Shown piece after piece: positions 28,380 to 41,790 of a DNA stretch of 56,657 bases; positions within the stretch are counted from its first letter, which is position 1; each line of letters opens with the position of its first letter. Below the pieces are notes generated by a model. That model was given only the letters and a program-made list of their open reading frames with translations. It was not told the DNA's origin and did not search any database. A program made the position numbers and the translations under genes. Location: assembly GCA_022360015.1 (NCBI GenBank), contig JAKSDQ010000193.1, positions 1 to 56,657 of the forward strand, read 5' to 3'. The DNA is from Cytophagales bacterium. GTDB lineage: Bacteria > Bacteroidota > Bacteroidia > Cytophagales > Cyclobacteriaceae.

Positions 28380-29432
28380 TCAAAATTTGTCCTTTGCCGG
28401 GTCACATCCATGGCCACTTATTTTGACTGTCTTGGCTGTGAATTCGTATTCTATATTTATAGCCACCTGAATCAATTTTAGCACACTATTTAAGCTCGCG
28501 TTTTCAAATTCACCAAATAACGTACAATTTCCAATCCGCTCATTCCCGATGATAAACTTCACCCCATACCATTTTTCAAGTGTCCTGGCCACCTCATCGA
28601 ATCTGGCTCCATCAAATTTCACCACCCCCTCTTTCCAGGCAATAAGCCCTTCAACATTGGCTGAATCGATTTTAATTTCATCATCCACCGGATGGTAGAT
28701 AGCAAGCGTATTGGTGGTCAGGATATGTTGGCTGGTCTCGCTGTCTTGAGTTCCGCTTACGGCAACCCTTCCTTCGGCGACGGCAACTTCAATTTTTTGG
28801 TCTTCAGGATACGCCTTGATATTAAAAGAGGTACCAAGTACTTTGGTCTTAAGTTTTCCCGAAAAGACCGTAAAAGGTTTTTGAGCTTGCTGTGAGACTT
28901 CGAAAAAGGCTTCTCCCTCCAGCGTAAGTTTCCTTGTACGTGGTCCAAATTTTTCAGGAAATACCAGTTTGCTGGCAGAATTAAGATGTACTGTAGAACC
29001 ATCGGCAAGTAAAATCGTTGCTTTCTGACCTGGTAATGTCACTTTTTCCAGGAGTGTCACATTCCCGCCTCTCCACCATCCGGGGTGTTGGAAATGGTAA
29101 ACCAAAAAGGTCGCTGCCACTATGAGTAAAAACACAACTGCCTTTTTCCACAAATAATTTCTCCTGTTGCCAGTAAAAACATAGGTCTGTTTATCGCGGG
29201 CAGGTTCGTCTGTTAACTGTCCCGATGTTTTATCCCGGCGTTTAGGTAGCGAAGATTTTTGAGCGCCGCTCCTGGCACGTTCTATTTTCCATATCTCATA
29301 GGTTAAACGTGATCTTTCATCTTTATCGCCCATTTTTTTAACCAGGTCGAGCAAAATATCAAACTCTTCCCGGGTAATTGAATTATCCAGGAATTTTTGA
29401 TACAACCGTTTTATCTGCTCTTTTTTATGCAA
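28380..29432 (-). CDS. FecR family anti-sigma factor (orphan)
   Basis: 350 residues with cytoplasmic N-terminus (NSITREEFDILLDLVKKM), one transmembrane helix (about 94-110, WKKAVVFLLIVAATFLVYHF), FecR domain (ILLADGSTVHLNSASKLVFP, EGEAFFEVSQQ, KLKTKVLGTSFNIK) and a C-terminal DUF4974 domain (VARTLEKWYGVKF, LFGEFENASLNSVL). Complete. Unlike the copy at 13332-14411 it has no ECF sigma gene upstream on its strand and no susC downstream. The nearest sigma gene is divergent (29903) and has its own anti-sigma factor. It is probably left over from the SusCD locus whose remnant is at 25406-25738. Confidence 0.93.
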   Translation of the reverse strand: MHKKEQIKRLYQKFLDNSITREEFDILLDLVKKMGDKDERSRLTYEIWKIERARSGAQKSSLPKRRDKTSGQLTDEPARDKQTYVFTGNRRNYLWKKAVVFLLIVAATFLVYHFQHPGWWRGGNVTLLEKVTLPGQKATILLADGSTVHLNSASKLVFPEKFGPRTRKLTLEGEAFFEVSQQAQKPFTVFSGKLKTKVLGTSFNIKAYPEDQKIEVAVAEGRVAVSGTQDSETSQHILTTNTLAIYHPVDDEIKIDSANVEGLIAWKEGVVKFDGARFDEVARTLEKWYGVKFIIGNERIGNCTLFGEFENASLNSVLKLIQVAINIEYEFTAKTVKISGHGCDPAKDKF

Positions 29433-29902
29433 AGCGTTTGATATACCTGAAAAACTGCTGACAAAGCGCCATCAGTATTTGACCATACCCCCTTGTTATA
29501 AGCTACTTTTGTAAAAAGTTATTCAGCCAGCCCCCAGTTTAAAATATTGGTGACTTTTGAAGGATACACAAATTTAGGATAAACAGATATTTTTTGGTAA
29601 AATTAAGGGCTATTCAATTTTTCAGGCAATTGTGGTAATTTTAAATGTAAGTAAGTAAAAATTCCCCCATCATTATCTGCCTGGTAAGGCGGAAAGGGGC
29701 CATTGGGGAGCAGAAATCGCCTGGCTAATCAAAATTAATTGATTTCCAGGCACATACACCTTGTTGCGTCATCCCTGCAGCGAAGCTACTCTTAGGTCGT
29801 TTTTCTAAGTAAATAGCCACGCGAAAAAACAAAAAAAGATAATTTTACTTCAACTTTAAGGTTACAAATCTTTAATTCATTACGACTTATAATTGATGCT
29901 GC
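29433..29902. promoter_or_regulatory. Divergent promoter region between fecR and sigma gene
   Basis: About 470 bp with no gene. It must carry the promoter of the orphan fecR (minus) and of the ECF sigma operon (plus). No clear TTTG / TAnnTTTG pair could be singled out. An unusually GC-rich patch (about 29680-29790) interrupts the AT-rich DNA and may be an old coding fragment. Confidence 0.35.
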
Positions 29903-30514
29903 ATGCAGGTTTCCGGTAAATTAACTAACAAAGATTTGATTTTGGCCATCAAATCGGGAAAAAACATCGATGAAGCGATAAGTTTTATATATAAAAATTA
30001 TTACGGTCTGCTGGAAAACATTGTGCTTTCCAACAATGGTAATAAAGCCGACGCCGAAGATGTCATTCAAGAAGTGTTGGTAGTTTTTATAGAAATGGTT
30101 ACCAAAGATAAATATCGAGCCGAGGCAAGTATAAAATCGTTCTTGTATACACTGACGAGAAACCTGTGGATCAGTGAAATAAGAAAACGTAGCAGCGCCC
30201 AAAAAAGGAACACCACCTATGAGGATTCCAGGGAACTGATAGAAAAGGACATTTCGGATTACCTTGTGTATCACGAAAGTCAAAAGTTGATAATGACATT
30301 ATTTGAAAAGTTAGGTGAAAAATGTAACCAGATACTTACTTACTTTTATTACAATAATTATTCCATGAAGGAGATATTGGAAAAGGTGAGTTATGGTAAT
30401 GAGCAGGTGCTCAGAAATAAAAAATACAAATGTCTCAAGGGGTTAATTAATATGGTTAACAGTTCACCAGCAATTATGGAAAATCTAAAAACTGCTTTAC
30501 AAAATGGAAAATGA
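29903..30514 (+). CDS. ECF-type RNA polymerase sigma factor
   Basis: 203 residues. Region 2 (about 25-95): AISFIYKNYYGLLENIVLSN, then ADAEDVIQEVLVVFIE and IKSFLYTLTRNLWISEIRKR. Region 4 (about 125-185): LGEKCNQILTYFYYNNYSMKEI and ALRNKKYKCLKGL-like helix. It differs from FecI-type factors. It overlaps the anti-sigma gene by 11 bp (30504-30514), so their amounts are linked. In several Bacteroidota this sigma class is found near TPR-CHAT genes, and one lies at 37583-40339 here. Confidence 0.88.
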   Translation: MQVSGKLTNKDLILAIKSGKNIDEAISFIYKNYYGLLENIVLSNNGNKADAEDVIQEVLVVFIEMVTKDKYRAEASIKSFLYTLTRNLWISEIRKRSSAQKRNTTYEDSRELIEKDISDYLVYHESQKLIMTLFEKLGEKCNQILTYFYYNNYSMKEILEKVSYGNEQVLRNKKYKCLKGLINMVNSSPAIMENLKTALQNGK

Positions 30515-31286
30515 AAACAATTACAAAGATCTCGAGCTCCTCGACAGATATCTGGATGGAGAACTGGATACTGCTGAGCAGAGAGATTTGGAGCGCAGGA
30601 TTAGTGAAGATCAGAGGCTTAAAAATGATCTGGAAATTTTACGGATTTCAAGGGATGCCATCAGGACCAAAGCCCTGAAGGAAAAGGTAAAAAAGTTGCA
30701 TCAAACACTCGTGCCCGAAATAAGGGCTGACAAAACCAAGGTAATCCCCATCAGCAGGAAAAACAAATATATCAAACTGGCTATGGGTGTTGCCGCCAGC
30801 ATTATCATTGTGGCAGGCAGCTTTATCGTTTATCAGTATTCAAACGTTAGTGCTGATAAACTATATGCACAACAATTTCTTTCTTATGAGTTGCCCGTTA
30901 CCAGGAGCAATGGTGACGAGATGACAAAAATTGACTCTTTATACCTTTCCGGCAGCTATGGTAAGGTCATTGAATATTTTAACTCATTAACTCAAAGGAA
31001 TATCAGGGATTACTTTTTGACCGCTATGTCTTATTTGCACATTGACAAATTCAAAGAGGCAATAGATTTGTTTCAACATATTGTCGATAAAAACAATGCC
31101 CCGGAGGGTGAAAAGTTTTTTGAGCAGGAAACGGATTTTTACCTTTCCCTTGCCTACCTGAAAGTAGGTGAATTTTCAAAATGCAAAGAGCTATTCGTCA
31201 AAATGAAAGCTAATCCAAAACACCTTTATCATAAAAACGTCACCCGTAAGGATATATGGATGCTGGAAATTCTTGAGAAGGAGTAG
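30504..31286 (+). CDS. Anti-sigma factor with periplasmic TPR domain
   Basis: 260 residues. N-terminal cytoplasmic anti-sigma-like helix bundle (about 8-60: DRYLDGELDTAEQRDLERRI, the zinc-less ASD form), one transmembrane helix (about 95-112, GVAASIIIVAGSFIVYQY) and a C-terminal region of TPR-like helix pairs (about 140-250: SGSYGKVIEYFNSLTQRNIR, LSLAYLKVGEFSKCKELFVK). The TPR end would sit in the periplasm and could bind a partner such as the secreted TPR-CHAT protein encoded downstream. It overlaps its sigma gene by 11 bp. Confidence 0.8.
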   Translation: MENENNYKDLELLDRYLDGELDTAEQRDLERRISEDQRLKNDLEILRISRDAIRTKALKEKVKKLHQTLVPEIRADKTKVIPISRKNKYIKLAMGVAASIIIVAGSFIVYQYSNVSADKLYAQQFLSYELPVTRSNGDEMTKIDSLYLSGSYGKVIEYFNSLTQRNIRDYFLTAMSYLHIDKFKEAIDLFQHIVDKNNAPEGEKFFEQETDFYLSLAYLKVGEFSKCKELFVKMKANPKHLYHKNVTRKDIWMLEILEKE

Positions 31287-31639: not shown

Positions 31640-31672
31640 AGTCATAGTATGACTTTGAGTCATACTATGACT
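31640..31672. repeat. AGTCATA double hairpin at the downstream end of the NTPase/exporter operon
   Basis: AGTCATAGTATGACT (31640-31654), loop TTG, then its exact reverse complement (31658-31672). Each arm is itself palindromic around its centre. It lies 11 bp beyond the exporter stop codon (operon on minus strand), as a terminator would. The same element is at 37394-37426 upstream of the operon. Confidence 0.85.
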
Positions 31673-31682
31673 TGTGAGTTTA

Positions 31683-33398
31683 TTATTTGATGCTAAGTGA
31701 GTGGTCGATTGTGTTATCCAGGGTAAAGCTATGATCAACATCGATATAATCATCAGGCACACACTGGTCTAAAATTATGACGGTTTTCTCGCCTTTTAAA
31801 CTATTGATAAGGTCAGCCATATGACGGCGAGAGGCTTCGTCGAGGCCACTGAACGGCTCATCAATGACTACAACTGGTTTGCCGGTAAGCAAGGCGCGGG
31901 TGTACGCCAACAGCTTTTTTTGCCCTTTGGATAGATTAGATCCCAAATCCCCTATTTTAGTATCCAGGGAAAGTTTCAGCTTCCCGGGACAATTTTTTTG
32001 AATGAAATCCAAAGTTTCCTGTGCTTTGGCTCTCTTTGCTGCTTTACGGCTATAGCTGATAGCTTCAAAGACTGTTCTCCCAAAAAATGGCCAGTCTTCG
32101 GGAACGATGGTAATAGCCTTTCTCAACGATTTTTTGTCTACCAGTTTAGTATGCTGGCCGTCAAAAAGAATTTTTCCCTTTGTTGGCAGGTAAAGTCCGG
32201 CCAGCAGCTTCAGCAAGGTGGTTTTTCCTGATCCGGTGCGGCCTTGTATGCAGGTGATCCGGCCCGCTGGAATTGTGAAGTCGCTGAAAAGGAATTTTTT
32301 TCCCGCACCGGGATACTGGAATGTTACGCTTTGAAAAACTATTTTCCCCTGCTTAAACCGAAATGAAGGTAAAGGTTCTTCACTTACCGGTGTATGATTT
32401 AGTACGATAAGCAGCTTTCTAAAAGATATATTTCCTAATTCCCAGACTGTATTGACCCTGAGCGTACGGCGGAACACAGGCATACCTGTTATGAGCAGTA
32501 AAATAGAGGCCAGCAAAGCCCCGGCGTCAATGTTGGCGTTGCCATATTCATATTGATAATAGGTATAGTATAAAATAGCGAACAACATGACATACAGCAG
32601 GCCGGGGATAATGGCCATAATAATGCTGTTAACCCGGTGATAACGGATACCGGCCTTGTATACTTTTTCAGATCTTTTACAATATCTGTTCATCTCAGGC
32701 CCAAGCCGGTTAAATGCTTTGAGTGAAAGTATACTCCGTAAGGTAGCGTTGACATATGACAGCAGGCCCGCTTTATAATTCCGTTGCACCAGGCTCCGGT
32801 CATGTAACGCCCGGTTTAATATGAACATCAAACCGCCAAATACCGGTAAAAACCCCAAAATAATAAGCAGTAACCCCTTGTCTAAAATTCCAATAGTCAC
32901 CAATACCAGCGATAATAAAAGGGCATCCACCATAAAGCCGATAAGTCCCTTGGTTACATAGTTTTGGGTGCTTTTAAGATCACCACTATGACGCAGGAGG
33001 TATTTGCCTATGCCCTTTTCATCATAGATTTGCATCGGCATCTGTAGTTGGGAAAGGAATAGTTTGTTCCTTATGAATAACAACATTTTCTCTCCTACCC
33101 TACCCACCTGGTAACGCTGTAAAAAATCAAAAATGATCTTTAACAGCACCAGCACCATAAAAAAGGTCAGGAAGCTCGGTATAGTGTCCCAAAACCAGTC
33201 AGGAAGAAAACCAAGCACCTGTGACCTGTGGGTATTCAAACCGAAAACAAGGTTGTAAAACCTGCCGATGCTTACAGGGATGATGATCGTAAAAATATTG
33301 GAAAGTAAGCTTACCAAAAAGGTGACCAAAATGATAAGCTTATTTCCAATAAAAAAATTCGCTAAAATTTTATTTTTTGTCAACATTTCATGCAACAT
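31683..33398 (-). CDS. ABC exporter, fused transmembrane and ATPase domains
   Basis: About 571 residues from the ATG at 33396-33398; a second ATG at 33386 is 1 bp past the upstream stop, and both are possible. Six hydrophobic segments in the first 330 residues (type I exporter fold). ATPase: Walker A GRTGSGKTT at about 395-403, signature NLSKGQ (usual LSGGQ changed at one position), Walker B VVVIDEPFSGLD, and a final ILDQ in place of the usual switch histidine. That substitution is unusual and may point to a slow or degenerate site in a homodimer. Last gene of the five-gene operon. Confidence 0.85.
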   Translation of the reverse strand: MLHEMLTKNKILANFFIGNKLIILVTFLVSLLSNIFTIIIPVSIGRFYNLVFGLNTHRSQVLGFLPDWFWDTIPSFLTFFMVLVLLKIIFDFLQRYQVGRVGEKMLLFIRNKLFLSQLQMPMQIYDEKGIGKYLLRHSGDLKSTQNYVTKGLIGFMVDALLLSLVLVTIGILDKGLLLIILGFLPVFGGLMFILNRALHDRSLVQRNYKAGLLSYVNATLRSILSLKAFNRLGPEMNRYCKRSEKVYKAGIRYHRVNSIIMAIIPGLLYVMLFAILYYTYYQYEYGNANIDAGALLASILLLITGMPVFRRTLRVNTVWELGNISFRKLLIVLNHTPVSEEPLPSFRFKQGKIVFQSVTFQYPGAGKKFLFSDFTIPAGRITCIQGRTGSGKTTLLKLLAGLYLPTKGKILFDGQHTKLVDKKSLRKAITIVPEDWPFFGRTVFEAISYSRKAAKRAKAQETLDFIQKNCPGKLKLSLDTKIGDLGSNLSKGQKKLLAYTRALLTGKPVVVIDEPFSGLDEASRRHMADLINSLKGEKTVIILDQCVPDDYIDVDHSFTLDNTIDHSLSIK

Positions 33399-34470
33399 CC
33401 AGTACCAACCTGTCGGCACCTATGTGTGATTTGACTGCAGGGCTAACAGTGGTTCTTATTAGTGAATGAACGACGTTTGAAGAAGCCAGGTGTTGCAGAT
33501 TCAATAAAGGCAATTTCAATTTACAATTTACCTCATCTACCAGCAAAGGACAAGTGTTGATCATACCACTGACGGCAAAAGGTTCAATTCCTTTACTGCG
33601 CAACGTCGCCACACCTTGCAAAGCGCTGAGACTATCACCACTTGAAAACAATACATGATCAATGGTGGACATGAACGCTTTATTGTCGATCAACATTTCC
33701 GTTTCGCGTTGCAACAGACCGTCGGCAATCTCAATAACGATGTACTCCGGATTAATAGGGGCCACGCTGGTCAACAAGCCCTCATAAAGGTCTATGATGC
33801 AGTCCAGTGAACACAGATAAGTGGATGGGAAACCCAGCTCTGAAAAATCAACCGCTACATCAGCGCCACAATCAAAGGCCAGCATCCTGTCCTTATTGAA
33901 GACTGTACCGGTGAGCTTCATAAAAGCTACCCTGTATCCGGCAGCCTTCAGCCCGCGACAAAGATATGCGGCGGAAGTGGTTTTGCCGCTATCCATGCTG
34001 GAACCGATGGAAAGAACTGTTTTGTGGCTCCGGGCCTTTTCAGGGGCAAATTTAACGGGTTGGGTATGGTGGTAAATGGAATTGACTACTTTTCCATTCC
34101 CATTGGTTGCATAGCCCACCAACCTTAACTTTGTGGCACCACGCAACGCCAGCTTATAGTACATAGATTTTACAACGCCAGCTACGCCACCTTTCCCCAT
34201 GAGGTCATACACTTCGTGATATCCCACCGGCACATAACCTTCAAATTGGTTGCTGGCGTATCTGTTACCAAAGGTAGCCATGATTTTATCCCCTGGGAAA
34301 ATATGGCAGTTTCTACCATCTTCATCCTGTATAGCCGTTAGCGTACCAAGTTCCAGTACTTCAAAGATCGCCACATCTCCTGCCTTAGGTTGGTGTTTTT
34401 TGATGATAGATTCATCGGTGTGGTAATCATTAATATTTTTACAGATAATAGATTTTTTAATACTTTTCAT
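33388..34470 (-). CDS. DUF1611-like P-loop NTPase
   Basis: 360 residues. The N-terminal about 150 residues form a separate beta-rich domain (GDVAIFEVLELGTLTAIQDE, then VPVGYHEVYDLM). The C-terminal half is a MobB/dethiobiotin-synthetase-like NTPase: Walker A IGSSMDSGKTT at about 171-181, FMKLTGTVFNKDRMLAFDCG, then IVIEIADGLLQRETEML as the Walker B/acidic region. It resembles DUF1611-type or cobyrinate-like ATP-dependent ligases; the substrate is unknown. It lies 81 bp downstream of the DUF2490-type gene and overlaps the exporter frame, so product synthesis and export may be linked. Confidence 0.7.
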   Translation of the reverse strand: MKSIKKSIICKNINDYHTDESIIKKHQPKAGDVAIFEVLELGTLTAIQDEDGRNCHIFPGDKIMATFGNRYASNQFEGYVPVGYHEVYDLMGKGGVAGVVKSMYYKLALRGATKLRLVGYATNGNGKVVNSIYHHTQPVKFAPEKARSHKTVLSIGSSMDSGKTTSAAYLCRGLKAAGYRVAFMKLTGTVFNKDRMLAFDCGADVAVDFSELGFPSTYLCSLDCIIDLYEGLLTSVAPINPEYIVIEIADGLLQRETEMLIDNKAFMSTIDHVLFSSGDSLSALQGVATLRSKGIEPFAVSGMINTCPLLVDEVNCKLKLPLLNLQHLASSNVVHSLIRTTVSPAVKSHIGADRLVLDVA

Positions 34471-34550
34471 AGTTATAATATTTAAACTTTTTTTGCCTGG
34501 TTTGTTATATCAATAGACAATTAGATGATGTTATTTAGGTAATTTTAAAT

Positions 34551-35318
34551 TTATTTTAATTTCAATCGATGCGAAACGGTCACGATAAAGACTGAAAAGT
34601 TGTTAAATCTCCTTCTTATCCTTCCGTTCCTCGGGTCTTCCACATTGATTCTGCGGTATTTGCTGCCGAGGTTAAATTCGGTTTGCCGCATAAATCGCAT
34701 GGTAAGATTGGTTCGCTTTAAGGGGGTGATCCTTAGCCCCAGCGTGAATCTGTGGGCATGAAGACCATTGGGTGATTGCTCCACCACCCTTTCCCCTTCG
34801 GCATCACGGTACCACAGCGGGTCTCCTGACAAGTAATAGTGAAACTCATTGGTCATGAAAGGTCTTGCCCTCAATGGTAAATCCAGATTTCTCGGATGTA
34901 TCCTCATTGCATAGCGGAGGCGGTATTCGAATTTGCTTCTCTCCGGAAGATGCCACTCGGCGCGGAAAGTATTCATAACCCTGAAACCCTTCCACTTGGT
35001 GTAGTAGCTGACGCGGCCCGTAAGCCGGCTTCTTGCCTGTTTACCAAGGTCACGCGGATCGACAGATAGTTGATAACCAAATCCCAGTCTCACCCGCTTG
35101 TTGTACCGGTAGCTGACGTTCAGACTGTTTTGAATGCGGCTTAGTTTGCGGGGGTTCCCGCTAAACATGAATAGTTGCCTTGCCGATACGCGCCATTCCT
35201 TGGTAAGCCTCGCTTCAGCACCATGGCCATACCAAATGCTCATACCGTCCTGTGCTAATGCTATGCTATGGAAAAAGAAAGTGATGAAGGCAATTAGTAT
35301 AGTTTTATTATTTTTCAT
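34551..35318 (-). CDS. DUF2490-type outer-membrane beta-barrel protein
   Basis: 255 residues from the ATG at 35316-35318 (MKNNKTILIAFITFFFHSIA, signal peptide ending ALAQ). The mature part is a run of amphipathic strands rich in Arg and Tyr/Trp (WRVSARQLFMFS, YRYNKRVRLGFGYQLS, YYTKWKGFRVMNTFRAEWHL) ending VTVSHRLKLK, the alternating C-terminal beta-signal. This is the pattern of DUF2490 proteins. It could form the outer-membrane exit of the operon's exporter, but that is inference. Confidence 0.75.
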   Translation of the reverse strand: MKNNKTILIAFITFFFHSIALAQDGMSIWYGHGAEARLTKEWRVSARQLFMFSGNPRKLSRIQNSLNVSYRYNKRVRLGFGYQLSVDPRDLGKQARSRLTGRVSYYTKWKGFRVMNTFRAEWHLPERSKFEYRLRYAMRIHPRNLDLPLRARPFMTNEFHYYLSGDPLWYRDAEGERVVEQSPNGLHAHRFTLGLRITPLKRTNLTMRFMRQTEFNLGSKYRRINVEDPRNGRIRRRFNNFSVFIVTVSHRLKLK

Positions 35319-35456
35319 AATGGTTTTACTATCACACTTAGTCAAAAAAAACTTCAGGCTTGTTACAATTTTCAGACATTCGATGTATCGGATATTTACT
35401 ATAAGTCGAAGCAGGTCGACGCTATGTAATCATCTTTTTAAAAAAATATTGAGTCT

Positions 35457-36797
35457 CTATAAAAACCTGGCCTGAATGCCCGGGTCAGGGATTTCACACA
35501 CATTTTTCATTCCGAACCATCGGTAGCGATACCGCGCAAATAACCGGTAAGCAGCCTCTCTGATGGGTTTAGGGATCAGGATAAATAGGTACATCCAATT
35601 CCAGGGGGCTTTGAGTTTTCCGGCTATCTGCAGTATGGCTGTACTGCGTGTATATACTTTTTTATTTTCTATCAATACAATCGTTGAAGTATCAGCCGGG
35701 GCCTTATACTCCTTTAACAGCTTCTGTCCTGTCTCTGACTGTTGTGAGGCAAAATGAAAATGTTTACGGTGATCATGGTCAAGAATGAATCGCACTGTTC
35801 TATCGCAAAAATTACAGGCACCATCAAACAAAACGACCGACTCGGTTTGCCCGGATTCCACATCAAGGGTATCAGGTTTTTGCTTTTTGCCAAACAGTCT
35901 TTTCAGATAGGGTATAGCTTTTTCCGTATCGAAAAAGGGCAAAAAAATCAAGCCGCTCATCTGGTACCGGAATCGGATACCCATGACAAAAAAGATTCCC
36001 CAATGCATAGTCCAGGTCAGGAAAGCCCAGATCATGCCTGCCCGTTTATTACCGAGCACCAGCGGTCCGCCCAGCTCAAGCACAAAGGTGAGAATACCCA
36101 TGAATAGGAATAATTCCGTATGCGGATATATCCATTCGAAAAGCGGGGAAAAGTTCTCACCTAACACCATCTTTCTCAGTGTATCGATCGCCACCTGCGA
36201 GCGCATGGCACTTCCTGATACCCAATCCCAGGCTAGCTCTCCAAACACTTTTGCCAAGCCTGCCAAGAAGTAGGTAAATACTGTGGCGGCACATACCAGT
36301 TTTATCGGCCAGCCATAACGCCAATGGCTGACGGTACTACTGATCATTCCTTTTCTTTTTTTCCACCAGGCATCCCAGGAGTAAGCATCTGCGGCAGCCA
36401 CAAAACCTATTACCAGCACATGCAGTACCAAAGCTATGCGGCCATGATAGATCATGGACCATGAGTTTCTGTAGCTCAGCAGGAATAAAAGCAAAATGGC
36501 AAAAAGAGGGCCTGTCCACTTGAACTTCCATCCCATTATGTAAGCAATGTTCAGTGCAATACCTAATGAAAATATTAATGTAAACAAATCAGGAGGCAAA
36601 GGGCCGTTAAGTAGGTTGGATAACCCAACCGCCTCGAACATGGCGCTGTCGGAGCGTGCTATTCTTTGCATCATATCAAACCTGGTGAGCAAATACCACA
36701 GTGAAAAACCACCCGATGCTATGCGCAGTATGGCCAGTCGTTCAGCCGGTGCCGGGCTAAACCAAAAGTTCTTGAGTTTTGTCAATAAGGTCTTCAT
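35457..36797 (-). CDS. HTTM membrane protein fused to a DCC1-like thiol-disulfide domain
   Basis: 446 residues. The first about 300 are an HTTM (vitamin K gamma-carboxylase-like) membrane domain: at least six helices, with ERLAILRIASGGFSLWYLLT and FLTWTMHWGIFFVMGIRFRY typical of it. The C-terminal about 130 residues are a DCC1-like (DUF393) domain with VVLFDGACNFCDRTVRFIL, carrying CxxC after DG, and FASQQSETGQ. HTTM domains occur next to DCC genes, but here the two are one chain. The start codon overlaps the upstream gene's stop by 4 bp. A membrane redox modification role is likely; the substrate is unknown. Confidence 0.85.
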   Translation of the reverse strand: MKTLLTKLKNFWFSPAPAERLAILRIASGGFSLWYLLTRFDMMQRIARSDSAMFEAVGLSNLLNGPLPPDLFTLIFSLGIALNIAYIMGWKFKWTGPLFAILLLFLLSYRNSWSMIYHGRIALVLHVLVIGFVAAADAYSWDAWWKKRKGMISSTVSHWRYGWPIKLVCAATVFTYFLAGLAKVFGELAWDWVSGSAMRSQVAIDTLRKMVLGENFSPLFEWIYPHTELFLFMGILTFVLELGGPLVLGNKRAGMIWAFLTWTMHWGIFFVMGIRFRYQMSGLIFLPFFDTEKAIPYLKRLFGKKQKPDTLDVESGQTESVVLFDGACNFCDRTVRFILDHDHRKHFHFASQQSETGQKLLKEYKAPADTSTIVLIENKKVYTRSTAILQIAGKLKAPWNWMYLFILIPKPIREAAYRLFARYRYRWFGMKNVCEIPDPGIQARFL

Positions 36798-37255
36798 TTC
36801 TTTTCAATATTTTGATAGCTATAAACTGTTTCTTTGATTGGAAGCTTGTTTTCGGACATAAAAAAATCATCCAGATTATACCTGCCTCTTACCATTTCAA
36901 CCCTTACCAATTCATTGTATGGAGCCTTGTTAGTCCGGGCTAACCTTGTGGCTACTTTTTTAGTGAGTTCCTCTACATCACCCTGCCTCGCCCGCTTATT
37001 AATTTGCCTTCTTACCTGGTTGAAGCCACCTGGTCCTGCGTACTTGTAGGGGATATAATGTCGCTTCCCGGAAATGTCATAACCCACAAAGTAAGGTAGC
37101 GAATGCGTTGCTTTTCGCTTGTGTGAAAACATGGGGTAATAGGAAAAAGGAAACTCATCCTGAGGGTTTTCTACCCAGTTTTGCCGTACCGGCCATAATA
37201 TGGCCATGATCATTATCACACTAAATATCGATGCGGCTGCTTTTGTCTTAATCAT
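36794..37255 (-). CDS. Small membrane-anchored protein, HTTM partner
   Basis: 153 residues, one N-terminal transmembrane helix (about 7-23). The segment FPFSYYPMFSHKRKATHSLP and the repeated basic stretches (KRARQGDVEELTKKVATRLA) resemble small proteins encoded beside HTTM genes. It overlaps the HTTM-DCC gene by 4 bp and is first in the operon. Function unknown; likely a periplasmic accessory. Confidence 0.65.
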   Translation of the reverse strand: MIKTKAAASIFSVIMIMAILWPVRQNWVENPQDEFPFSYYPMFSHKRKATHSLPYFVGYDISGKRHYIPYKYAGPGGFNQVRRQINKRARQGDVEELTKKVATRLARTNKAPYNELVRVEMVRGRYNLDDFFMSENKLPIKETVYSYQNIEKK

Positions 37256-37582
37256 GGTTATCGTATTTGGTTGTTAAACTTGCGTTGAATTCGAGGTTGT
37301 ACTGCTTAGTCGATGCTGGTGGTTAATATGTAATCTGGGGGAGGATCTTTTTTGGGGATTTTTAGGGGGGTGTGGGGCACACCGGAGATCACCAGTCATA
37401 GTATGACTCTAAGTCATACTATGACTAAAACGAAAATAAATGCAGCACCTATAATGAGTTGTGCAACACCCACGTCCCGCATGCGCCCTACTTTTAACCC
37501 TGAAAACTGAAAACCCGGAACCCGGAACTAGAAACCTGTGACCCGCAACCTCACAACCCGCAAACTTTCACTTCTTTTCTTC
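37256..37582. other. Intergenic region with repeats
   Basis: About 330 bp. It holds the promoter of the five-gene operon (minus strand), the AGTCATA double hairpin (37394-37426), an inverted copy of the TTGTGCAACACCCACG repeat (about 37455-37470) and a low-complexity patch of repeated AACCCGNAACC-type units (37488-37560). Confidence 0.55.
37394..37426. repeat. AGTCATA double hairpin at the upstream end of the operon
   Basis: Same 15+3+15 structure as 31640-31672, with loop CTA instead of TTG. It lies about 140 bp upstream of the first gene of the operon. Two identical elements bracketing 5.7 kb suggest either shared regulation or borders of a transferred cassette. Confidence 0.85.
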
Positions 37583-40339
37583 TTACACAGAGGTCCTGAA
37601 AAAGTTTCTCCACGCCAGTGCCGCAATGCCGGTTATCAAAAGAGCGATCATCATATAGTACCATATATTTCCGGAAGCGTCAGAGGTCTGGGGGTCTCCG
37701 ACAAAAATCAGGTGTGACCAATAGGAGGGGGAATGGAATTGCGCGTAATCCGGATTTTTCATCAAATCGATTTTAGCCAGTTTCAGGGACTGGGAGAATC
37801 CCAGCCCTTTTCTGAGATATTCATAAAACTTCTGGCTTATAAAAGCAGTGGCATGATCCTCGGCTTTCCAGAGGGAGGTTACCATATTCGGACAGCCGGC
37901 GATGGCAAAAGCCCTTGAAAGACTCATGATCCCTTCCCCGCTTACCAGTTTGCCATGGGCGGTTTCACAGGCGCTGAGAAAAGCCAGGTGCGTCTGGTTC
38001 AGGGAAATGTTGTACAACTCGTGGGCAAATAGTTTATAGCTGTTGTCGCCGGCCAAATCCGGGTAAAAAACAATAAACGAACGGGAAGGATCTTCGCTAT
38101 TAGCGATACTGTGTGTTGCCAGATGGATGATGGCCACACTGTCTTTATATTTCAGGAAATTTGATTTGGTGGCTTCGTCACCGGTGAGCCATTTACCATC
38201 CAGTTGGCTGGCCTCCTGTTCTGTGTAATGAAGCGGCAAAAACTCAGCTACCCTTTCCTTGGATTGTTCCGGCGGTCCGGAAAAGGGGGTAACAATGAGG
38301 GCATTTTGTAAATCCAGGGTCTCCTGACCTGCATGGCTCAGAAAGGAGGCCGCATATTGGTAAGTCACCCCATAATTTTTGATGAGATATTCGCCCGATT
38401 CATCTTCCAGTGCTTCAAAAGGCAGGTTATTAAGTCTTTGGTGGGGAATGATTATCATTGAACTTTTGCCTCTCAAATCTTCTTTTGCCGGAAGTATCAG
38501 TTTTTGATAGAGCGTTTTTGCAAATGAACTGCCAGCATAAACTTTACCGGGCACAAATTGGCGCAGTTCCTTTTCAAGTTGTTGCAAGGCCCGGCGATAG
38601 CCATCGTCTATGGGTATCTGATAATATTTCAGGTCAGCATTGGTCAGCACGAAAAGGACTATGCTAGTGTCACAATAAAAATACGACAGCAGGGCGGACC
38701 GGTCGTCGAGTATTTTGTGTTGAATATAAGACAGCGCCACACTATCATTACTAAACTTTTTCCGGTAGTATTCAGGGTATTCATGCAGTGTAGCCTGGAG
38801 TCTGGACAAATCCAGTTGTATATCCCGGATTTCAGTTTTCAACGAAGCAATTGCTTCTTCATCTTCCGTATTATCAATTTTAAGAAAAAGCCTGGACAGA
38901 TTAAATTTCAGGTTTTGTTCTTTTTCCAGCAATGAGTCCGGCAAGTCAGAGTAGGGTTTAATCTGATTCTCTTTTAAACTTATTGCTAATGCGGTGGCTT
39001 TACTCTTTTCTGCCCAGTAAAGGGCATGTTCCACATATTTCTTGTCATGGGTGGTCTCATAAGTATTTATAAGCAATTGCACACCTTGCTGATACGCTTT
39101 AAATACTTTTTGCCCGATAAAAAGCCGTGCATCTTCATTATCAAATGATTTGTTGATAAAATCAGCCATCCTGAAAGCAGCGTTGTAGGTATTTAATGAC
39201 GCGTTTAGATAGCGATCATCCTTTTCTTGATTGTACAAGCCATACAAACAGATCGCTTTGGCCACAAGACTTTCAAACAATGAAAAACTGCTAAAGCCGG
39301 TGGCAAAGTTTTTGGGGTTCAATAAAATATTGTTATCATCAAAATCATAATCCAACTGGATAATAGACTGTTGATAGTAGTCAAGTGCTTTCAGATAATC
39401 CTTTTTTTGATAATAAATATCGCCCAGCAGCTTGTAAGTAAATCCTATTCTATCGTATTTCCCCTCTCTTTTCCACATTGACAATGATTTTTGGAAATGT
39501 TCTTCCGCTAAATCGTACCGGCCCTGCTGGAAATAGGTGTGGCCAATTTTATTATGATAGACTACACTATGTCTTCTGACACTGTCTTTCACGTTGGTCA
39601 AGTATAGTAGTGCACTGTCAGGCTCATATTTTTTAAGAAAAGTCATGCCCAGATTAATATAAATCTCATCATTACGAACATTAAGGTCCAGGATCTCCTT
39701 GTATAACACTATCGCAGAATCATAAAGCTCCAGGCGTACCAAAGCGGTAGCGATATTACTTTTGAAAGTGTAAAGACCTCTGTCGATGTAATTCTCCTGC
39801 CGGGCTATTTCCAGGGCTTTACCGAAATAGTTGATGCTTTGGGCATAATTACCTGCCTCAAAGTGCAGTACGCCAAATGAATTATACAAATGAGGGTCCT
39901 GATTTTTGTAAAGACTTTTTTCTGCCTTTTCGAGATAGTATTTGGAGGAATCAAAGTTATGGAGGTAATAGTGGGAATTACCGGAGTAAACATAAGGGGT
40001 ATATAGCAATGAGTCCGCTAATTCAAATTTCTGACAAAGGCTTATCGCTTTTTTAAACAGCTCCAATGCTTCATTGTTTAGCCCATGGTCTTGTTTCAGA
40101 ATTCCTGCCCTTTCATAACAGTCAAAAAGCATGAGCGCATTTTCTTGTGTATGTGACAACATAGAGGCTACCTGAAGATATCTTGTGGTAGCAAGAGAAT
40201 CTGAATAAGCAGTGGGTGGATAGGTATTAAAGTATTCCTCGGCTTCGTGATAAAGTTGCCGGGCATTTTCTTCCTGTGCAACACAGTCGAAGAAAGAAAA
40301 GAGGTGGAATAGGGTAAAGCAAAAGGAAATCCGAGTCAT
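37583..40339 (-). CDS. Secreted TPR-CHAT protein (caspase-like protease fold)
   Basis: About 918 residues from the ATG at 40337-40339 (MTRISFCFTLFHLFSFFDC, signal peptide). At least eight TPR units span about 30-400 (YNSFGVLHFEAGNYAQSINYFGKAL, IGHTYFQQGRYDLAEEHFQKSL and others), then a helical linker. The CHAT domain (about 600-905) has HLATHS (histidine about 742) and LSACETA (cysteine about 789), the expected catalytic dyad. It ends in one transmembrane helix and a short basic tail. It faces the periplasm. Together with the ECF sigma and TPR anti-sigma genes at 29903-31286 it may form a signalling unit. Confidence 0.9.
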   Translation of the reverse strand: MTRISFCFTLFHLFSFFDCVAQEENARQLYHEAEEYFNTYPPTAYSDSLATTRYLQVASMLSHTQENALMLFDCYERAGILKQDHGLNNEALELFKKAISLCQKFELADSLLYTPYVYSGNSHYYLHNFDSSKYYLEKAEKSLYKNQDPHLYNSFGVLHFEAGNYAQSINYFGKALEIARQENYIDRGLYTFKSNIATALVRLELYDSAIVLYKEILDLNVRNDEIYINLGMTFLKKYEPDSALLYLTNVKDSVRRHSVVYHNKIGHTYFQQGRYDLAEEHFQKSLSMWKREGKYDRIGFTYKLLGDIYYQKKDYLKALDYYQQSIIQLDYDFDDNNILLNPKNFATGFSSFSLFESLVAKAICLYGLYNQEKDDRYLNASLNTYNAAFRMADFINKSFDNEDARLFIGQKVFKAYQQGVQLLINTYETTHDKKYVEHALYWAEKSKATALAISLKENQIKPYSDLPDSLLEKEQNLKFNLSRLFLKIDNTEDEEAIASLKTEIRDIQLDLSRLQATLHEYPEYYRKKFSNDSVALSYIQHKILDDRSALLSYFYCDTSIVLFVLTNADLKYYQIPIDDGYRRALQQLEKELRQFVPGKVYAGSSFAKTLYQKLILPAKEDLRGKSSMIIIPHQRLNNLPFEALEDESGEYLIKNYGVTYQYAASFLSHAGQETLDLQNALIVTPFSGPPEQSKERVAEFLPLHYTEQEASQLDGKWLTGDEATKSNFLKYKDSVAIIHLATHSIANSEDPSRSFIVFYPDLAGDNSYKLFAHELYNISLNQTHLAFLSACETAHGKLVSGEGIMSLSRAFAIAGCPNMVTSLWKAEDHATAFISQKFYEYLRKGLGFSQSLKLAKIDLMKNPDYAQFHSPSYWSHLIFVGDPQTSDASGNIWYYMMIALLITGIAALAWRNFFRTSV

Positions 40340-40588
40340 GCGTTGAATGATTTTAAACAAAATTACATTATTACCGTCAGGAATTATATTTTTCTGCAAT
40401 ACTTAAGAATCGGTGACTCCTGCTTATGGTGGTGTACCTTGAAAAAGTCTTGCTAAGTGGATTAATTCAACAAATCCGGTCGGAGGTCCAGGTGCTCAAC
40501 ATACAGCAGGCCGACACCAACCTTTTAAAGAACACAATGCTCCCTGCCCACCCCGAAAGGCAGGAGGAAGCAAGGGTATTCAATAGCT

Positions 40589-41581
40589 TTATTGGACTTT
40601 TCCGACAATCAGGATGTATCTGGGTCTTCTCATACCCGGTCTATCGGTCGCTGTCCTCGAAACGTTTGACCTCCTGCTGCCACTTCCCGGTGCTGCTGAA
40701 AGGCTATTCCTTTCGTTAATTTCATCAAGCAGGGAAGCAGGGATATCACCGCGGGTTTCAAAATAGAAGAAACGAACGTCAATGCCGTTGAGGGTGTGGT
40801 TACTGGCGTCGTTAAGGCGGTAATTGATTCTGAAGTCTTTTTCAGTTCCATTCACAGGATTAGGCCCAAATACGCCATTGGCGAGGGTATTTTTTACGTT
40901 AATAACACCGGTAGCTTTATTAATGTCGACTCCCTGAGGTATTACTTCTTGTCCTGGCAAAGGCTCGTCTCCTGTACCATCTCCGTCGTCATCATCGGGA
41001 CCGTCATCAAATTCGCATCCATCATCGTCGTCATCATCATGATCATCGTCGTCGTCGTCATCGTCGTCATCATCGTCATCGTCATCGTCATCTGAACATG
41101 GCGGAAGCAGTCCTTTTTGGGCGTTGTAAAACGGAATGGCCAGCGTATCGGCGGTATTGATTTCGTAAATATGATCTTCGTAATCTATTCCTGAAATTAC
41201 AATGGAAATCTTACAGCTATCTGTTGTGCCTTGTGGAATAAAAAAGACTTCATAGGCAAGCCCGGTTTCACTTTGACTTACATTGATTGCTCCGGTGGTG
41301 CTGTCGATAACTAATCCTCCGGGGAAAGCCCCGTAAGTACCTGTTTGCGCAATAAGGGGTGATTCGATATAGTCCGTGATTTGCTCTCTCAAGTAGAATA
41401 TGGTATCTGAATACTCAAAGTCAGCGCAAATAGCCGTTGAACCGTTGTTTGCTGTTCCGCTTGAATCAATCCCATTGTTATTTACCTGGTTGGGTGATAT
41501 GTCGTCATCACTGCATGACAAAATACTCATAGTTAGTATGGTCAAAACCAGGGTAGAAATTTTTAACATTCGATAGTTCAT
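40589..41581 (-). CDS. Lipoprotein with poly-aspartate tract
   Basis: 330 residues from the ATG at 41579-41581 (MNYRMLKISTLVLT); lipobox SILSC, so a lipoprotein. The centre contains a run of 17 aspartates, a histidine and six more, then further Asp-rich segments (41030-41095), encoded by mixed GAC/GAT codons. Such a tract should bind calcium or other cations. Domains on each side have VIDSTTGAINVSQSETG and DINKATGVINVKNTLANGVFG, two related half-repeats. The C-terminus is basic. No family recognised; probably a cell-surface protein. Confidence 0.7.
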   Translation of the reverse strand: MNYRMLKISTLVLTILTMSILSCSDDDISPNQVNNNGIDSSGTANNGSTAICADFEYSDTIFYLREQITDYIESPLIAQTGTYGAFPGGLVIDSTTGAINVSQSETGLAYEVFFIPQGTTDSCKISIVISGIDYEDHIYEINTADTLAIPFYNAQKGLLPPCSDDDDDDDDDDDDDDDDDHDDDDDDGCEFDDGPDDDDGDGTGDEPLPGQEVIPQGVDINKATGVINVKNTLANGVFGPNPVNGTEKDFRINYRLNDASNHTLNGIDVRFFYFETRGDIPASLLDEINERNSLSAAPGSGSRRSNVSRTATDRPGMRRPRYILIVGKVQ

Positions 41582-41790
41582 TGTTGGTTTTTGTATTAAG
41601 TCGTAATGGTTTGTAGTAATGTAACCGTTAAAGACAGACAATTCCTCTAAAACTTTACATTTTATTTTTTTTATCTCAGAATGTTTGCTTGGTGAATCGG
41701 TAGCTTTTCTTCAAAAACCTCTTTAAGCACTTTTCAGATGGCCTGGAGGTGGGCGGTAAGTTACAATCGTTTTTTATTATATTCACTTTC

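Follow-up and report, generated by a model that had tools for sequence, protein, structure and literature searches.

The window analyzed here, a 56,657-nt stretch of DNA from a Cytophagales bacterium (contig JAKSDQ010000193.1, positions 1 to 56,657, forward strand), carries five neighboring minus-strand genes that a preliminary description had read as one operon for an undescribed modification-export system: genes for a small membrane protein, an HTTM-DCC fusion, a DUF2490-type barrel, a P-loop nucleoside triphosphatase (NTPase), and an ATP-binding cassette (ABC) exporter. We show, at the level of sequence, that these genes belong to a recurrent set that also includes an extracytoplasmic function (ECF) sigma factor with its predicted anti-sigma, a CHAT protease, and a polyaspartate lipoprotein, and that one common promoter-like motif stands before all four units into which the set is divided. 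The unit likely reaches past the five genes to take in 29903-31286 and 37583-41641 (Table 1); the preliminary description overlooked these flanking genes, all of which share the promoter motif. The whole looks like a larger regulon seen in many Bacteroidota and, in part, on some alphaproteobacterial plasmids.

The reading that we favor, with moderate confidence, is that a switch made of the polyaspartate lipoprotein, the CHAT protease, and the anti-sigma controls an ATP-dependent pathway that makes and exports a small compound derived from amino acids. The ECF-sigma regulon would comprise four units (sigma/anti-sigma; lipoprotein/CHAT; small protein/HTTM-DCC; barrel/NTPase/ABC), with the five genes forming the two effector units. 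An envelope signal would be read via the lipoprotein, the membrane-anchored CHAT protease would cleave the periplasmic part of the anti-sigma, and the sigma factor so freed would raise expression of all four units. The NTPase may spend ATP on activating a carboxylate or carbamate of a small compound resembling an amino acid; the ABC protein would then move the product through the inner membrane, and the DUF2490 protein would handle it at the outer one. In loci that have HTTM-DCC and its partner, the two would carry out an inner-membrane modification linked to redox chemistry; some loci without this pair have a predicted secreted beta-aspartyl peptidase in its place.

Table 1. Genes, promoter-like sites, and repeats of the window, in window coordinates.
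Feature	Position	Strand	Basis or remark
ECF-sigma promoter-like site GTTACA-N15-TCGACT, before sigma gene	29861..29887	+	1 mismatch
ECF sigma factor	29903..30514	+	PF04542 over cut-off; TIGR02937 58.2 bits vs cut-off 42.9
Predicted anti-sigma, transmembrane-like segment 92-110, TPR-like C-terminal half	30504..31286	+	gene overlaps sigma gene
Dispersed palindromic repeat, outside the system	31640..31672		33 nt
ABC exporter, MsbA/ABCB type (transmembrane domain + ATPase)	31683..33419	-	Pfam; closest by sequence among solved structures: ABCB proteins and MsbA
P-loop NTPase, C-terminal domain dethiobiotin synthetase/DUF1611-like, N-terminal domain beta-rich	33388..34470	-	Pfam, alignment, AlphaFold2, Foldseek
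DUF2490 protein, presumed outer-membrane barrel	34551..35345	-	PF10677 E 7.5e-15; ATG start probably 35318
Promoter-like site before barrel-NTPase-ABC	35404..35430	-
HTTM-like membrane domain fused to DCC thiol-disulfide oxidoreductase	35457..36797	-	PF04134 E 8.9e-32; HTTM via family
Small protein, 153 aa, one N-terminal transmembrane-like segment, invariant F-P-x-S-Y-Y-P-M-F motif	36794..37255	-	alignment; no Pfam match
Promoter-like site before small protein/HTTM-DCC	37308..37334	-
Dispersed palindromic repeat, outside the system	37394..37426		33 nt
TPR-CHAT protease, C-terminal transmembrane-like segment	37583..40399	-	PF12770 E 9.4e-55, 186.5 bits
Predicted lipoprotein, polyaspartate loop bracketed by two Cys, 19 of 20 residues Asp	40589..41641	-	lipoprotein signal by eye; ATG probably 41581
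Promoter-like site before lipoprotein-CHAT	41599..41625	-

A promoter-like motif common to four units

At up to one mismatch, GTTACA-N15-TCGACT occurs exactly four times in the window against 0.14 expected, a number reached in none of 100 shuffles (at up to two mismatches there are 11 matches against 2.64 expected). Each of the four sites precedes one unit, which makes it most likely that the five genes are two sigma-driven units. The motif emerged from the regions upstream of sigma, effector, and lipoprotein genes: GTTACA with TCGACT was the best pair in regions of the Cytophagia type (13 of 40, versus 5-7 in shuffles), and when spacers of 13-19 were allowed 19 of 44 such regions matched, all 19 with a 15-nt spacer. 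Loci of the Aquimarina type have a different pair, TGTCAC with CTTATA, found in 23 of 26 regions and in every match with a 17-nt spacer.

Over 14 loci (280 kb), the first motif with spacer 15 gave 39 matches, 30 of them upstream of system genes, and other spacers from 11 to 19 gave 2-8 matches with 0-2 before system genes. TGTCAC-N17-CTTATA gave 47 matches, of which 28 lie before system genes (13 before the SIG2 family of sigma factors, 11 before the barrel) and 17 have no assigned gene; with spacers of 13-16 and 18-20, 0-2 of 6-18 matches precede system genes. When the window and its congener were left out of the derivation, TTACA-N15-TCGAC was still among the top 5-mer pairs (9 of 34 regions), and at further lipoprotein loci a match stands shortly upstream in 10 of 17, 7 of these in genomes without the NTPase. 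The pattern is thus that of an ECF sigma regulon as judged from sequence, with common -35 and -10 elements at fixed spacing before the sigma gene and its putative targets. In a Spirosomataceae metagenome-assembled genome (MAG), two extra genes lie between anti-sigma and NTPase (L050:3819-5184), one of them VTC-like by eye, with a motif match 21 nt before the first.

Open reading frame (ORF) analysis places the five minus-strand genes at 31683-37255, where the preliminary description had put them, and many other genomes have these genes adjacent. The tight packing described earlier holds at two junctions, where the small-protein and HTTM-DCC genes overlap by 4 nt and the NTPase and ABC genes overlap provided that the ABC gene begins at GTG, but not at the barrel-NTPase gap of 80 nt or the HTTM-DCC-barrel gap of 111 nt. 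Because the latter gap holds a promoter-like site, two transcription units appear more likely than the single five-gene operon first proposed.

The NTPase-ABC-barrel core and its partners

Our comparison covers 82 NTPase loci, namely the best 80 of 88 from a scan of the genome collection together with the window and genome G070; their ORFs were clustered into families and counted with family hidden Markov models, and with many contigs short the counts are lower bounds. The NTPase ORF is present at at least 81 loci, the ABC gene at at least 74, the DUF2490 barrel at at least 63, and all three at at least 59, with CHAT at at least 28 and a beta-aspartyl-peptidase-like enzyme at at least 18. Same-strand adjacency is recurrent for NTPase-ABC (61 places, median gap -1), barrel-NTPase (64 places, median gap 24), and small protein-HTTM-DCC (21 places, median gap -4). 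HTTM-DCC and the small protein occupy the same 21 loci and are an optional partner of the core. The proposal of an undescribed modification-export set is supported in part, for a recurrent NTPase/ABC/barrel combination with the HTTM-DCC pair as optional partner, of which we found no description in the literature searched. The pair lies between NTPase and ABC in Aquimarina and upstream of the barrel in the window, a difference that favors a functional tie over inherited gene order. On a tree of 93 NTPase rows the HTTM-DCC label changes 3 times and the peptidase label 4 times, counted against rows with other labels (38 rows are unlabelled, and some joins are flagged as long-branch).

The NTPase is sparsely distributed: a search of 395 Bacteroidia genomes with its profile gave matches at E <= 0.001 in 12 (9 below 1e-120, 3 remote or doubtful), and 7 of 98 related genomes hold it, the window's own included. 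So sparse a protein is not housekeeping, and the window NTPase reaches no Pfam or NCBIfam cut-off; a clear fit to a known housekeeping family, which would have told against the preliminary description, was thus not seen. A tblastn search matched eight plasmid records, of which seven were examined. Four, all from Rhodobacterales, have the NTPase gene followed by the ABC gene and preceded by an alpha/beta hydrolase gene (by annotation in two records and by eye in the other two), and three of these four loci also hold a sigma factor and an S8 protein bearing an Asp-rich tract. The Paracoccus albus locus also encodes a full HTTM protein of gamma-carboxylase-like type and a DUF393 (DCC) protein, and at the Sulfitobacter locus a gene for an Asp/Asn beta-hydroxylase lies three genes ahead of ABC; on the plasmids of Priestia, Microvirga, and Paracoccus marcusii, no ABC gene is adjacent to the NTPase gene. 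The Rhodobacterales versions suggest that the core moves between phyla. Three MAG records among the loci (L044, L052, and L054) are named Chitinophaga pinensis, Streptomyces griseus, and Sphingobacterium thalpophilum; their NTPases fall near those of Flavobacteriales MAGs, and the names are probably wrong.

The AlphaFold2 model of the NTPase is of high confidence (predicted local distance difference test score, pLDDT, 93.9; predicted template modeling score 0.89) and contains an additional beta-rich N-terminal domain. Its best Foldseek matches are dethiobiotin synthetases, followed by MipZ, HypB, SRP GTPases, DUF1611 proteins, and DgcN; 1dts, 3of5, 2obn (DUF1611), and 7xrj (DgcN) have E values of 1.9e-5 to 1.9e-4, with TM-scores by query of 0.35-0.40 and alignments that cover part of the chain only. 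By this model the fold is of the dethiobiotin-synthetase/DUF1611 type. Membership in DUF1611 itself (PF07755) is not supported, with 16.7 bits against a gathering score of 25, over the P-loop part alone; weak DUF1611 matches (E up to 1) occur in 50 of 57 homologues, and the Pfam matches of the window protein (CbiA, DUF1611, MobB) are all below cut-off. Profile searches against solved structures returned weak matches only. Invariant in all 57 NTPases are G156, M159-D-S-G-K-T-T165, K185, T187-G-T, D194, D208-F, and E247-I-A-D-G, whose P-loop, lysine, and acidic motifs presumably correspond to the catalytic residues of BioD. The protein shares the fold type of its C-terminal domain with BioD and DUF1611/DgcN enzymes, at 11-16% identity among the matches listed, and differs from them in the added beta-rich domain and the coupling to an ABC exporter.

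Neighbors of remote NTPases bear on the chemistry. Those of L013 and L126 adjoin a beta-aspartyl-peptidase-like gene, with no ABC gene in the stretch examined, and that of L014 has M20 peptidase and flavin reductase genes as neighbors (L015 and L016 are similar by eye). The one beta-aspartyl-peptidase-like member that was scanned matched at E 5e-105, yet below the NCBIfam cut-off, and most of the peptidase sequences inspected have signal-peptide-like starts by eye. We infer from the peptidase, M20, and ATP-grasp neighbors that the chemistry may concern amide bonds of acidic or small amino acids. The window's own genome holds a remote NTPase paralogue (G000:C112:67041-67709; L009/L014). On a Priestia megaterium plasmid (L099, 3730-12418), a remote NTPase of 28% identity stands in an annotated cluster with ornithine carbamoyltransferase, ATP-grasp, M20, thiamine-pyrophosphate, and phosphoenolpyruvate-mutase-family genes, which looks like a phosphonate natural-product cluster.

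The exporter combines PF00664 (100 bits) and PF00005 (90.2 bits) in one chain and resembles MsbA/ABCB exporters in domain layout and sequence; at 204.4 bits against a TIGR02203 cut-off of 602, it falls far under the NCBIfam threshold for the MsbA lipid A flippase. Its presumed outer-membrane counterpart is the DUF2490 protein, which we take to be a barrel.

The claim of an HTTM-DCC fusion is upheld for the DCC half, with PF04134 at 111 bits, matches in all 20 family members, and invariant C328 and C331. The HTTM half draws its support from the family, in which 5 of 20 members (the window protein included in the 20) match PF05090 with a best E of 1.4e-14; the window protein itself has no HTTM match. 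Those 5 members link the family to vitamin K-dependent gamma-carboxylase, and a full gamma-carboxylase-like protein occurs at the Paracoccus albus locus; unlike that enzyme, the window protein joins its HTTM-like domain to DCC, and its small partner is dissimilar to the lumenal domain. Among the matches listed for the window's own genome, none to PF22777 falls in the window, so that a vitamin K-dependent gamma-carboxylase is not indicated there. We had expected the small protein to be the lumenal domain of a gamma-carboxylase encoded as a separate gene, but rejected this when hhalign gave its family a probability of 0.3 against 16 lumenal domains. Profile searches against solved structures with the HTTM-DCC and small-protein families gave no match and three weak, implausible ones. 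Two lumenal-domain matches lie elsewhere in the genome (G000:C135:12833-13273 and C236:46976-47413), and one or more such matches turn up in 58 of the 98 genomes searched.

The proposed regulatory module and polyaspartate tracts

The sigma factor is of the ECF class by its sigma-70 region 2 and TIGR02937 matches, and the sigma/anti-sigma pair is conserved across loci, with the transmembrane-like segment of the anti-sigma found in 12 of 14 homologues. The protease matches the CHAT family PF12770, and all 27 homologues of at least 800 aa retain His763 and Cys811, which we take to be the candidate catalytic pair. The lipoprotein carries its polyaspartate loop between C162 and C189, both invariant in 14 sequences; an Ig-like character is hinted at by a weak He_PIG match below cut-off. 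It lies beside CHAT in 18 of 20 loci examined. Just beyond the sigma gene is a FecR-like gene (window 28380-29432). In Algoriphagus, a further small lipoprotein-like protein stands beside sigma/anti-sigma (L060:2861-3604, which has no Pfam match, and L170:13099-13824), and seems to be part of the sensor module.

Across 291 genomes of the order, the lipoprotein is present in 18, the core NTPase in 6, and both in 5. The association is strong, with the lipoprotein in 5 of 6 core-NTPase genomes versus 13 of 285 others (Fisher p 2.9e-6, kinship ignored and with a lipoprotein profile that was built from NTPase loci); counting two remote-NTPase genomes as well, the figures are 5 of 8 versus 13 of 283 (p 2.5e-5, kinship again ignored).

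Envelope stress pathways of the RseA/RpoE type join a membrane anti-sigma to an envelope protease. The window system resembles these pathways, which are mentioned in PMC10028731, in that logic, and differs in its protease class, its polyaspartate lipoprotein, and its export effector. According to the same source, a TPR-CHAT protease cuts an ECF-type sigma inhibitor and so relieves the sigma factor in the Csx29/Csx30/CASP-sigma system (type III-E CRISPR; PMC10028731). The likeness lies in a TPR-CHAT gene next to an ECF-type sigma and its inhibitor; the window system differs in the transmembrane-like segments of CHAT (C-terminal) and anti-sigma and in the polyaspartate lipoprotein.

Asp-rich tracts, defined as 11 or more Asp in 20 residues, extend beyond the lipoprotein family (12 of 14). 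They are present in 16 of 20 S8 subtilases and in 5 of 784 unassigned ORFs of at least 100 aa, three of which are barrel-like by eye (L093, 425 aa; L075; L096) and one PepSY-like (L047). In the barrel-like proteins (L093:8582-9859, L075:16127-16924, and L096:1398-2324) the Asp-rich insertion lies inside the chain, and only L075 matches DUF2490, weakly and below cut-off. On the alphaproteobacterial plasmids the tract recurs in S8 proteins at 3 of 4 NTPase-ABC loci and in a protein with EF-hand matches below cut-off. Tract codons mix GAT and GAC, with longest same-codon runs of 2-8; recent codon slippage is an unlikely origin for tracts that are mostly codon-mixed, though L027 has a same-codon run of 8.

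Weighing the readings

Several observations weigh against the proposed switch. Thirteen genomes of the order hold the lipoprotein and lack the NTPase, and in genome G206 the whole sensor module (sigma, anti-sigma, CHAT, lipoprotein) is present while both the NTPase and polyaspartate are missing; since module and core are each found alone, the two halves are separable (in G223, sensor module and NTPase are on separate contigs). At 54 of 82 NTPase loci, many of them on short contigs and with other sigma types not counted, no gene of the SIG or SIG2 sigma families is in the flanks, which slightly lowers the probability of the switch and slightly raises that of an ordinary metabolite locus. In the motif derivation that held out the window and congener, an unrelated AT-rich pair ties at the 6-mer level (5 of 34 regions each), and when gene starts were applied strictly a match was lacking in 25 of 44 Cytophagia-type and 3 of 26 Aquimarina-type regions, some of these regions reflecting misplaced gene starts. 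A dethiobiotin-like chemistry, which in the synthetases themselves is the closing of a ureido ring on diaminopelargonate with ATP, would be drawn from the modeled fold and the invariant residues, and a related fold is seen in DgcN, whose title names it an acetyltransferase. The HTTM-DCC model (pLDDT 62.2) is too poor to interpret, and its structural reading was dropped.

Among the alternatives, we consider it unlikely that the polyaspartate proteins are substrates of a protein modification rather than sensors, with the NTPase preparing and the ABC protein delivering a small group that is put on or taken off the Asp side chains of secreted proteins, and HTTM-DCC, Asp beta-hydroxylase, and beta-aspartyl peptidase serving as lineage-specific partners of that chemistry. 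The spread of tracts over unrelated proteins at NTPase loci (lipoproteins, S8 subtilases, barrel-like, PepSY-like, and EF-hand-like proteins) and their mixed codons speak for it, as do the HTTM/gamma-carboxylase-like and DUF393 genes of Paracoccus albus, the beta-hydroxylase of Sulfitobacter, and the beta-aspartyl peptidases elsewhere; what counts against it is that five genomes without the NTPase (G671, G026, G635, G652, and G624) have long polyaspartate lipoproteins, so that a strict tie between the two is not upheld, and that no tract reaches our threshold at the beta-aspartyl-peptidase loci or the Sulfitobacter locus. A broader and tentative idea, which we think doubtful, is that tracts in unrelated, apparently secreted proteins of two phyla are the common currency of the system; the NTPase and exporter, joined according to lineage by HTTM-DCC, Asp hydroxylase, or beta-aspartyl peptidase, would then be dedicated machinery that decorates polyaspartate or makes a compound or ion complex recognized by it.

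That the NTPase and ABC protein belong to an ordinary specialized-metabolite locus, making and exporting one antibiotic or metal-binding compound with sigma and CHAT as mere neighbors, seems to us quite improbable. Such a locus would fit the sporadic presence of the NTPase (12 of 395 genomes), the remote relative in the Priestia cluster with its phosphoenolpyruvate-mutase-family, ATP-grasp, and M20 genes, and the many flanks lacking SIG or SIG2, but it sits poorly with a motif common to sigma and effector units that recurs, in different form, in two lineages; nor were assembly-line or precursor-peptide genes apparent among the recurrent families, although no search was aimed at them. The suggestion in the preliminary description that an identical 33-bp double hairpin at each end of the block marks a mobile or regulated cassette we hold to be extremely improbable, and we reject it. 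There is indeed one palindrome per end, and the two are inverted relative to each other (95% over 44 nt), but they are 94% alike rather than identical, the difference sitting in the 3-nt loop. The 7.3-Mb genome has 55 such sites at up to 3 mismatches (23 exact in 30 fixed positions), a density at which about 2.3 neighboring pairs within 5.8 kb are expected by chance; these are genome-wide repeats, not element-specific terminal ones. The locus of the congener G001 (same genus; 19 kb examined) has no such palindrome and holds sigma, anti-sigma, ABC, NTPase, barrel, HTTM-DCC, small protein, CHAT, and lipoprotein genes in identical arrangement.

The regulon proposed here would tie an uncharacterized enzyme family resembling DUF1611 to an orphan ABC exporter, a bacterial HTTM-thiol oxidoreductase fusion, and polyaspartate proteins in one testable system, and its four mapped candidate promoters may make the roles of bacterial HTTM proteins and of polyaspartate tracts accessible to ordinary genetics. 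If the tracts do prove central, a polyaspartate-centered machinery would represent a new type of envelope system.

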